A DNA stretch of 64,000 nucleotides from an uncultured Clostridia bacterium. Its GTDB lineage: Bacteria > Bacillota > Clostridia > Oscillospirales > CAG-272. Within the stretch, counting starts at the first letter, position 1, and each line of letters begins with the position of its first letter. A model generated the notes under the pieces. It was not told where the DNA came from and did not search any database. It saw nothing but the letters and a program-made list of their open reading frames with translations. The DNA lies in the NCBI GenBank assembly GCA_944381085.1, contig CALWJX010000003.1:62001-126000 (forward strand), in the 5' to 3' direction. The translations under genes were made by a program, and so were the position numbers. This document shows, piece after piece, positions 7,871 through 57,997 of this stretch.

Positions 7871-8002
7871 TACAACCACCTTTCCAAATTCAGATATACG
7901 CTTCTATAATTTTGACTCTATTATTTCCCTTTTTGTGAGGTCATCTACAAAATAGTTCCATGAGTATTCTATAAAAACAAATTAGTATTTATCTGATTCC
8001 TT

Positions 8003-8301
8003 CACGCTGTATACAAAACCCCGGACAGTTTTACATCAGTAAAACTGCCGCATACAGCAAGTTAAATATCATTTTTTGATTTCTTTACGCTGTATGCAAA
8101 GCCCCGGACAGTTTTACATCAGTAAAACTGCCGCATACAGCACGTCAAATAATATTTGTCCGATTGCTTTACGCTGTATCAATTTGCTAAGGATACAACC
8201 CGGACAGTTTTACGTCAGTAAAACTGCCGCATACAGCCAATAAAATAACATCTATCTGATTTCTTCACGCTGTATGCATATATACCATTATATCATATTT
8301 T
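8003..8301. repeat. palindromic repeat array 1 (83-bp family)
   Basis: There are three units of a nested palindrome plus a terminal half unit. Each unit has outer arms related to GCTGTATGC / GCATACAGC and an inner hairpin CAGTTTTAC-ATCA-GTAAAACTG (GTCA in the third unit). The CCCGG marker falls at 8020, 8103 and 8199: the first two units are exactly 83 bp apart and the third is shifted by 13 bp, because its left outer arm carries an extra stretch. The array ends with a lone left arm at 8268-8276 followed by an AT-rich tail (CATATATACCATTATATCAT). It lies between two divergently transcribed genes (7649-7870 minus, 8478 plus). The same family forms array 2 at 57.4 kb. Confidence 0.9.
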
Positions 8302-8477
8302 ACGGCTTTTTCAATGTAAAATGCAAAAAAAATTTATTTATCATGAAAAATGTAATTTCAATTCACATCTCCGTCATAAAAATGAGTTATAATTATTTTG
8401 AGTTTACATTTTCAACACATTCCGAAAAAACAAGTCAATAAACCCAAACATATGTTGTTCAATCGAAAGGAGATACA

Positions 8478-44688: not shown

Positions 44689-44781
44689 GTATATAAACAA
44701 AATAAATATATGCCGAAATTCCAATACGCATAAGACAGTTTTTCCATTCAAGTCCAGAAATCTATATAATGGTGTCTGCTT

Positions 44782-44840
44782 GCATACAGCATACAGCTGT
44801 GAATTGCGCACAGCGTGAAGCATTATATCATATTGCTGTA
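44782..44840. repeat. possible degenerate relic of the 83-bp repeat
   Basis: Just downstream of gltD, GCATACAG occurs twice in tandem, then GCTGTG/CACAGC and an end CATTATATCAT, recalling the outer arms and the tail of the 83-bp family. The inner CAGTTTT hairpin is absent, so this is a weak match. Confidence 0.3.
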
Positions 44841-56723: not shown

Positions 56724-57263
56724 TCAAGCCTGCACCGATTTCTTTATCCTGTCCGCCGCGTCTTTACCCTTGAGTAGCGAGACAAGCTCAAGCCCAAACT
56801 CAAGCGCGACGCCCATTCCCTTAGCCGTGATAATACTGCCGTCGCGGACGACCTTCTCGTTTGCCTCGACTTTCGCTCCGGCAAGCTCACCCTCAAATCC
56901 GGGGAAACATACCGCGCGCTTTCCCTCAAGCAGACCTCTTTTGCCGAGTATCATCGGCGCGGCACAGATAGCGGCAATATAAGAGTTATTATTAACCGCA
57001 GCGCGTATCGCCATGTCCACCGTGTCGGAGCTGTCAAGATTGACAGTGCCGGGCATACCGCCGGGTAAAATAATCATCTCAGGTCTGTAGTCATTATACA
57101 TTGTATCGCGCATGTCAACACCGACCGAAATTTTATGAGAGCCCCGTATAATGTCGCCGCCCACTCCGACAGTGGTCACCTCAACACCGGCGCGCCGCAA
57201 AAGATCAAGCGGGCACAGCGCTTCCACTTCCTCAAAGCCTTCCGCCAAAAATAAATATACCAT
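56724..57263 (-). CDS. DJ-1/PfpI-family protein
   Basis: A 179-aa member of the DJ-1/ThiJ/PfpI superfamily. The fold starts VYLFLAEGFEEVEALCPLDLLRRAGVEV, with the conserved Glu of the catalytic site. The nucleophile elbow AAICAAPMILG carries the reactive Cys, and ILPGGMPGT follows the expected strand. Family members are deglycase/chaperone-like or amidase-like enzymes; the precise activity is not assignable. The start at 57263 is based on GGGGG eight bases upstream. The palindromic repeat array 2 lies about 160 bp upstream. Confidence 0.9.
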   Translation of the reverse strand: MVYLFLAEGFEEVEALCPLDLLRRAGVEVTTVGVGGDIIRGSHKISVGVDMRDTMYNDYRPEMIILPGGMPGTVNLDSSDTVDMAIRAAVNNNSYIAAICAAPMILGKRGLLEGKRAVCFPGFEGELAGAKVEANEKVVRDGSIITAKGMGVALEFGLELVSLLKGKDAADRIKKSVQA

Positions 57264-57424
57264 AGCCTTAACCCCCAATACCATAACAAATTATTTAATT
57301 AATATCAAAAAACAATCCCAAATACGAAATGACTGCTTTCTCCATGAATAAAATTCTCTGCCTAAGTGATATCATAAATCCAAACGGACAGTTGTTGTCA
57401 GAGAAACTTCAGCATATAACAAAC

Positions 57425-57792
57425 AAAAAGCCCGGACAGTTTTGCAACGCAAAACTGCGGCATACAGCAAATAAAATAATATTTTTTTGAGCTCTTTACG
57501 CTGTATGCAAAAACCCGGACAGTTTTGCAACGCAAAACTGCGGCATACAGCAAATAAAATATTATTTTTTTGAACTCTTTACGCTGTATGCAAAAACCCG
57601 GACAGTTTTGCAACGCAAAACTGCGGCATACAGCAAATAAAATATTATTTTTTTGAACTCTTTACGCTGTATGCAAAAACCCGGACAGTTTTGCAACGCA
57701 AAACTGCGGCATACAGCAAATAAAATAATATTTTTTTGAGCTCTTTACGCTGTATGCAATTTACGCTGTATGCATATATACAATTATATCAT
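57425..57792. repeat. palindromic repeat array 2 (83-bp family)
   Basis: Four units in exact 83-bp register (CCCGG at 57431, 57514, 57597, 57680). Each 53-bp core has outer arms GCTGTATGC/GCATACAGC and an inner hairpin CAGTTTTGC-AAC-GCAAAACTG; cores are joined by about 30-bp A/T-rich spacers. Unit 1 lacks its left outer arm. The spacers come in two forms ordered a-b-b-a (TTTTGAGCTC versus TTTTGAACTC). At the right end the left outer arm is repeated (57748-57756 and 57764-57772), followed by CATATATACAATTATATCAT. The array lies between divergent genes, like array 1. No ORF here is likely to be real. Confidence 0.93.
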
Positions 57793-57997
57793 AAAAACAT
57801 ATCCTTGTCAATTAAATTTGACATTTTTAATATAACGCATCGCTTGGCAATGTCAAAACCGAGCGGCAAGCATAAAATATTTACCGTATCCCTTATTGGC
57901 TGAGTTTCAACAATGGTAAGGCAATTCACTTTTATACTTATTGCTAAAATGGCGTTAAATTTATGTAAAATTTCCTTATAATTATTAAACATTGCTC

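Follow-up and report, generated by a model that had tools for sequence, protein, structure and literature searches.

The usual view of small repeats is that they settle at safe intergenic sites and influence genes only on occasion. Integron cassette arrays and tRNA-targeted elements have folded recombination ends, a short core found in both the target and the element, and head-to-tail arrays. In yeast, the Ty3 retrotransposon, which has its own genes and Pol III targets, inserts at a fixed position next to the transcription start. The modules of the BOX elements of Streptococcus pneumoniae are reported to change the expression of neighbouring genes (PMC3049150), and one copy of the Correia elements lies just downstream of the mtrCDE promoter (PMC10969869). 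The REP family is defined by a GTAG or CGTC tag next to a palindrome of 20-40 bp (PMC3733652).

The repeat described here was found in a 64,000-nucleotide stretch of DNA from an uncultured Clostridia bacterium, referred to below as the window. It is probably a tandem of short non-coding mobile elements that insert in one direction directly 3' of the extended -10 box TRTGnTATAAT. Once inserted, the array would form the first part of the 5' leader of the gene that follows.

Results and Discussion

The array in the window

The array is located at positions 57424-57774 on the minus strand and consists of four units with a period of 83 bp. Tandem Repeats Finder reports a period of 83, 4.0 copies and 98% matches (score 635) for the span 57424-57759, beyond which a second partial arm extends the array to 57774. 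The exact 83-bp spacing of four units given by the sequence-only reading is thereby confirmed, and the a-b-b-a order of its two spacer variants is visible in the sequence. The inner hairpin CAGTTTTGC-AAC-GCAAAACTG recurs every 83 bp. A double hairpin had been assigned to every unit; this holds for the inner hairpins, but the leftmost of the four units has no GCTGTATGC on its left and lacks the outer arm. The nine-base arm GCTGTATGC/GCATACAGC occurs 16 times in the window, compared with 0.17 expected occurrences, so that the array is not explained by chance. The combination GCTGTATGC-N5-20-CAGTTTTGC is found 3 times in the window, with 0.00 expected.

The duplication proposed earlier is real inside arrays, where units share 90.5% identity, compared with 75.7% between arrays. 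The earlier view that the array is not a gene is also supported. It is not a CRISPR, since the whole 83-bp unit repeats and the spacers are near identical. Nor is it a terminator cluster, since most units have no T-run; the terminator-like matches have CCGGG between the stem and the T-run, and terminators were rejected as an identity. In Rfam no match of the array was found above the gathering threshold, and no known riboswitch or sRNA was recognised.

The sequence-only reading did not include the promoter-docked position of the arrays in one orientation, nor a second, more diverged array at 7957-8277 of the window with three units and a relic. The features of both arrays are listed in Table 1. 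The first array would form part of the 5' leader of the DJ-1/PfpI gene. At 44760-44835 of the window there is also a degenerate relic in which two GCATACAGC arms overlap; it lies between TATAAT-like sequences on both strands.

Table 1. Positions of the two arrays and their neighbouring features in the window
Feature	Position	Strand	Evidence
Promoter of the first array: TTGACA 57811-57806, 17-nt spacer, TATAAT 57788-57783; extended -10 with TGA preceding TATAAT (TTGACA-17-TGATATAAT)	57783..57811	-	12/12 consensus matches, promoter scan
Partial element between the -10 box and the first full unit: TGTATATATGCATACAGCGTAAATT	57758..57782	-	sequence
Unit 1, promoter-proximal in sense order: hairpin 1 + hairpin 2	57679..57757	-	CM R1 97.7 bits
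Unit 2	57596..57674	-	CM R1 97.8 bits
Unit 3	57513..57591	-	CM R1 97.8 bits
Unit 4, gene-proximal	57430..57508	-	CM R1 95.6 bits
Downstream gene, DJ-1/PfpI family	56724..57284	-	ORF; Pfam PF01965 E=2e-35
Promoter of the second array (locus L003): TTGAAA 8314-8309, 16 nt, TATAAT 8292-8287	8287..8314	-	
Second array, unit 1	8198..8277	-	CM R1 97.3 bits
Second array, unit 2	8102..8180	-	CM R1 80.3 bits
Second array, unit 3	8019..8097	-	CM R1 93.3 bits
Second array, degenerate copy after unit 3	7957-8014		

Structure of the unit

In the sense direction the unit consists of hairpin 1, two bases, hairpin 2 and then TCCGGGTT. The sense strand of both window arrays is the minus strand, which corrects the strand as first read. 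Hairpin 1 has a 9-bp stem and a loop of 30-31 nt, for example GCATACAGC, 30-31 nt, GCTGTATGC, and the loop starts with RTAAAGA or ATACAGA. Hairpin 2 is formed by CAGTTTTGC and GCAAAACTG with 3-5 nt between them and is mostly flanked by GCCG...TCCG. The length of the unit is about 80-97 bp in the genome that carries the window (G000) and about 125 bp in a different genus, g59.

The outer arms had been described as enclosing the inner stem, but a comparison of 102 units shows that it is a different pair of arms that covaries. GCTGTATGC pairs better with the GCATACAGC located 30-31 nt away on the promoter side than with the arm on the opposite side, beyond hairpin 2, which lies at a distance of 4-30 nt and has more mismatches. 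The nested palindrome was rejected as the structural unit because the pairing across hairpin 2 is weaker and its spacing variable.

The stems are compensated. Among 62 units, 99.4% of the pair cells are paired, with two-sided changes in 58 cells compared with 14 in shuffles. In 19 diverse units there are 27 compensated cells over 12 of the 18 pairs and 0 one-sided changes. The two-sided changes occur almost without G-U intermediates, the ratio being 27 to 0 in the 19 units and 58 to 3 in the 62 units. The near-absence of one-sided changes is better evidence on RNA versus DNA than the asymmetry of G-U and A-C, which is 14 to 5 among units that are not independent. RNAalifold applied to the g59 units supports hairpin 1 with no two-sided changes, so that the g59 set adds position and not covariation. 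When folded, the minus strand greatly exceeds shuffled sequences in stability (z=-7.8).

Docking at promoters

A search of genome G000 gave 50 matches, many of them at contig ends, and the unit is therefore not confined to the window. With neighbours merged and contig ends joined by hand, they correspond to roughly 37 arrays, these counts being based on sequence searches and retrieved stretches; the assembly breaks at many arrays. All strong units within an array are on one strand.

A promoter was accepted when the -10 box matched at 5-6 of 6 positions and the -35 box at >=4 of 6, at a distance of <=40 nt upstream. A sigma-70 promoter was found upstream of 21 of the 28 arrays with a readable flank, compared with 5.0% of control positions, or 0.9% when a perfect TATAAT is required. 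A perfect TATAAT is present in 22 of the 28, always within 25 nt. In 20 of those 22 arrays TG occupies the extended -10 position. At many loci the gap is zero, and TATAAT is directly followed by GTATACAGC.

The orientation of the arrays is nearly uniform, and the downstream gene shares the strand of the array at nearly every locus, L025 included. The genes linked to the arrays are unrelated and have no common function. From sequence reading we take them to include tRNA nucleotidyltransferase, glucose-6-phosphate isomerase, RimM, DAHP synthase, DNA polymerase I, ArgS, MoxR-type and LysR-type proteins and a tRNA-Thr gene. At L006 the array is located between the promoter and a ZTP riboswitch. 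The exceptions to promoter docking are L005, L023, L028 and L082, at gene 3' ends, and L027, which is antisense.

Three congeners (G008, G009 and G011) retain the promoter of the L025 gene and have no array there, and it follows that the promoter precedes the element. An element that brings its own promoter was rejected on the same ground, and also because the upstream sequence is unrelated among copies. The downstream flank of L025 contains a different dispersed repeat, GTTTTCGCCCGCCTTTTTCAAAAGGCGGTGGGG, present at many places in several genomes of the genus, with matches in G010, G000 and G003.

Distribution and signs of mobility

Many copies occur in 2 of the 12 genomes of the genus, namely G000 and G003, the latter a sister species (uncultured Eubacteriales assembly CASEEB01). 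At the loci they have in common, these genomes show about 90% identity. Most arrays of G003 are found at the same loci as in G000, with different numbers of units; the many common loci indicate that recent movement is not frequent. The elements are small, non-coding and multi-copy and show presence and absence between close relatives, a trait of MITEs. The earlier suggestion of a mobilised palindrome stands to this extent: the family is dispersed and carries signs of mobility. No match was found in phages, plasmids or IMG/VR that would point to a phage or plasmid origin, and at a strict cut-off a class-wide sample gave no further carrier.

One clean pair of full and empty sites was found. At L050 of the G003 genome TGATAAAAT is separated from CTTAAATAAATAC by about 190 bp, while in G000 these flanks are joined. 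No right-hand duplicate of the core is seen there, and 5 bases (GTACA) are unaccounted for. The empty state in G000 may be the result of excision. At L045 the G003 genome has two extra units exactly between TATAATT and the unit present in G000, and the difference in array length is thus at the promoter-proximal edge.

Relatives in other genera and at other sites

A broader model, R2, finds the same architecture in other genera. In genus g7, locus L079 reads TTGACG-16-TATAAT followed directly by GTATACAGC, and L063 reads TACAAT followed by CATACAGC. In genus g59 (genome G209) a BLAST search with one element as query gave 34 places. About 25 of 27 loci begin exactly at TGnTATAAT followed by GTACACAGC, and the DNA further upstream differs between copies. 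These copies are a separate expansion of the same design in a different genus. At L211 of this genus the element is found between a promoter and a SAM-I riboswitch. Related elements with a different arm (GCAGACGGC) occur at L259 and L261 of G209, and these do not follow a TATAAT box.

The g59 element ends with a tail of roughly CTCCGACGTGCAGCTRTG, after which the 7-bp core RTATAAT is often repeated. When the left and right cores of 14 loci were compared locus by locus, 88 of 98 positions were identical, against a mean of 79.4 after shuffling (P=5e-5); the pairs were read by hand and taken only from elements whose right core could be recognised (16 of about 28 units). In the genus of the window the tail is recognisable in a decayed state, for example as TCCGGGTCGTGTCTATGATATAAA, which at L053 precedes the second arm, and as TCCGGGTTGTATCATATGAATAAT at L017, and in G000 the right-hand cores are mostly decayed.

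Other relatives are located directly or nearly directly after partial copies of tRNA 3' ends (L174, L175, L203, L199, L210) or after the 3' end of rpsI (G008, G011, G145). The 3' ends of tRNA genes and of rpsI are typical attachment sites of tyrosine recombinases. This distribution suggests that one design of element end is used with different cores, the -10 box among them.

The 3' end of rpsI is variable (L188 in G011, L189 in G008, L103 in G005, L109 in G006, L185 in G145). Short direct repeats such as CTCCAAGAGATAATT flank a variety of small cargo genes there (lipoproteins, GNAT, HTH) in a manner that resembles cassette arrays. In G000 a tyrosine recombinase match (C1:139527) is located just downstream of rpsI. 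A Gut-1 RNA (RF01706; L203 1653-1729, genome G086) lies about 70 bp from the element copy that adjoins a tRNA gene. In genus g39 (G111, G260; L198, L208, L209, L066) a variant present in multiple copies combines GCAGACAG arms with another hairpin 2; it seems to form part of larger interspersed repeats and to lie away from -10 boxes.

Possible mechanism

We propose that a recombinase supplied in trans recognises the end of the element and the -10 core, and joins the element there. The predicted sequence of the joined ends is GCTRTG-RTATAATGTA-CACAGC, in which inverted arms enclose a short centre, much as in the core sites of tyrosine recombinases. A tyrosine recombinase is the most likely enzyme in view of the core length of 7 bp, the inverted arms at these putative joined ends (GCTRTG-N10-CACAGC) and the relatives at tRNA and rpsI 3' ends. 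A DDE transposase that makes a 7-bp duplication is a possible alternative. Among the 13 places in G000 that match PF00589 none is beside an array; no recombinase is linked to the family, and no autonomous relative was found. The insertion would be tolerated because a -10 box is left on both sides, and the number of units may tune expression and the structure of the leader.

The main rival explanation is an element of the leader RNA. Hairpins in the 5' UTR, serving as an mRNA stabiliser, a pause site or a site for an RNA-binding protein, would have been amplified in tandem and kept by selection. This would be consistent with the two covarying hairpins, their uniform orientation in transcripts, the location upstream of riboswitches, the many loci kept between the sister species and the stability of the minus-strand fold. 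However, hairpin 1 begins 0-1 nt after TATAAT at many loci. The greater part of its 5' arm would there precede the expected transcription start, and yet its 9 bp are intact. Two-sided changes almost without G-U steps are also unusual for selection on RNA. These two points make a pure leader-RNA role less likely, and the patchy occurrence within the genus and the lack of a common function among the downstream genes also speak against it. On balance we regard it as unlikely. An array of DNA operators, with a global regulator binding the inverted arms around the transcription start, would fit the constant 30-31-bp spacing of the hairpin 1 arms and the fixed position at the -10 edge. It is improbable, however, since the loops of hairpin 2 measure 2-5 nt and its stems are wholly different in relatives (L064, L066, L200), a variation not shown by operators, and since the duplicated core and the empty sites are signs of insertion.

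Palindromes of the REP/BIME type moved by RAYT, a kinship that the sequence-only reading had suggested, or a derivative of IS200/IS605, would explain the hairpins, the one-way insertion on the 3' side of a short fixed target and the lack of any obvious duplication at L050. A match to Y1_Tnp (PF01797) at E<=0.001 is nevertheless absent from both G000 and G003, where assembly gaps are possible, although it is found in G002, G010, G012 and G013. The unit alignments show no GTAG or CGTC tag beside the palindrome, the units are arranged head-to-tail, and the core duplication in g59 would not be expected of IS200/IS605. This origin is therefore very improbable. An artefact of a fragmented assembly that breaks at repeats is hardly credible, since the independent genome G003 and other genera carry the same element with the same docking.

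Insertion at the -10 box is thus preferred over these alternatives. It is conceivable, although we hold it somewhat doubtful in this complete form, that the family is a site-specific mobile system for which the sigma-70 extended -10 box serves as attachment site. Folded non-coding mini-elements would be inserted at the RTATAAT cores of working promoters by a recombinase that acts in trans. The core would be copied so that a box stays on both sides, and the length of the leader array could change expression at dozens of genes. The question raised is whether a bacterial element can target the open promoter itself. It is an unusual and testable finding that one design occupies the same promoter base in three genera and has undergone two separate large expansions. 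If confirmed, it would be a bacterial mobile repeat with the promoter itself as docking site, providing dozens of natural promoter and leader variants between close species and a handle on the responsible enzyme.

Comparison with known systems

No description of the present element was found in open-access papers, which is weak evidence of novelty. The BOX elements are likewise dispersed, non-coding, modular, variable in the number of tandem units, foldable as RNA and without a transposase of their own (PMC3049150). However, they have boxA and boxC ends around boxB repeats, and no docking at a -10 box is described for them (PMC3049150). By these descriptions, and by those of the sequence and structure of the unit, they are set apart from the present element. 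Correia elements and other MITEs are also small, non-autonomous, hairpin-forming and located upstream of genes (PMC10969869). They have terminal inverted repeats and often bring promoters (PMC10969869), while for the present element a pre-existing promoter is the target and the arrays are head-to-tail. The REP/BIME sequences with RAYT are palindromic, intergenic and multi-copy as well. They differ in their alternating orientation, Y1 transposase and tag, and in being mostly downstream of genes, whereas the present elements are upstream (PMC2817692, PMC3733652).

The comparison with Ty3 is an analogy only, and concerns mobile DNA at a fixed position by the transcription start. Integrons and tRNA-targeted elements share with the present family the folded ends, the short core, the head-to-tail arrays and growth at the target-proximal end, the last seen here at one locus. 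The docked elements differ from them in having no cargo genes and no linked integrase, and in using the -10 box of a promoter as the core.
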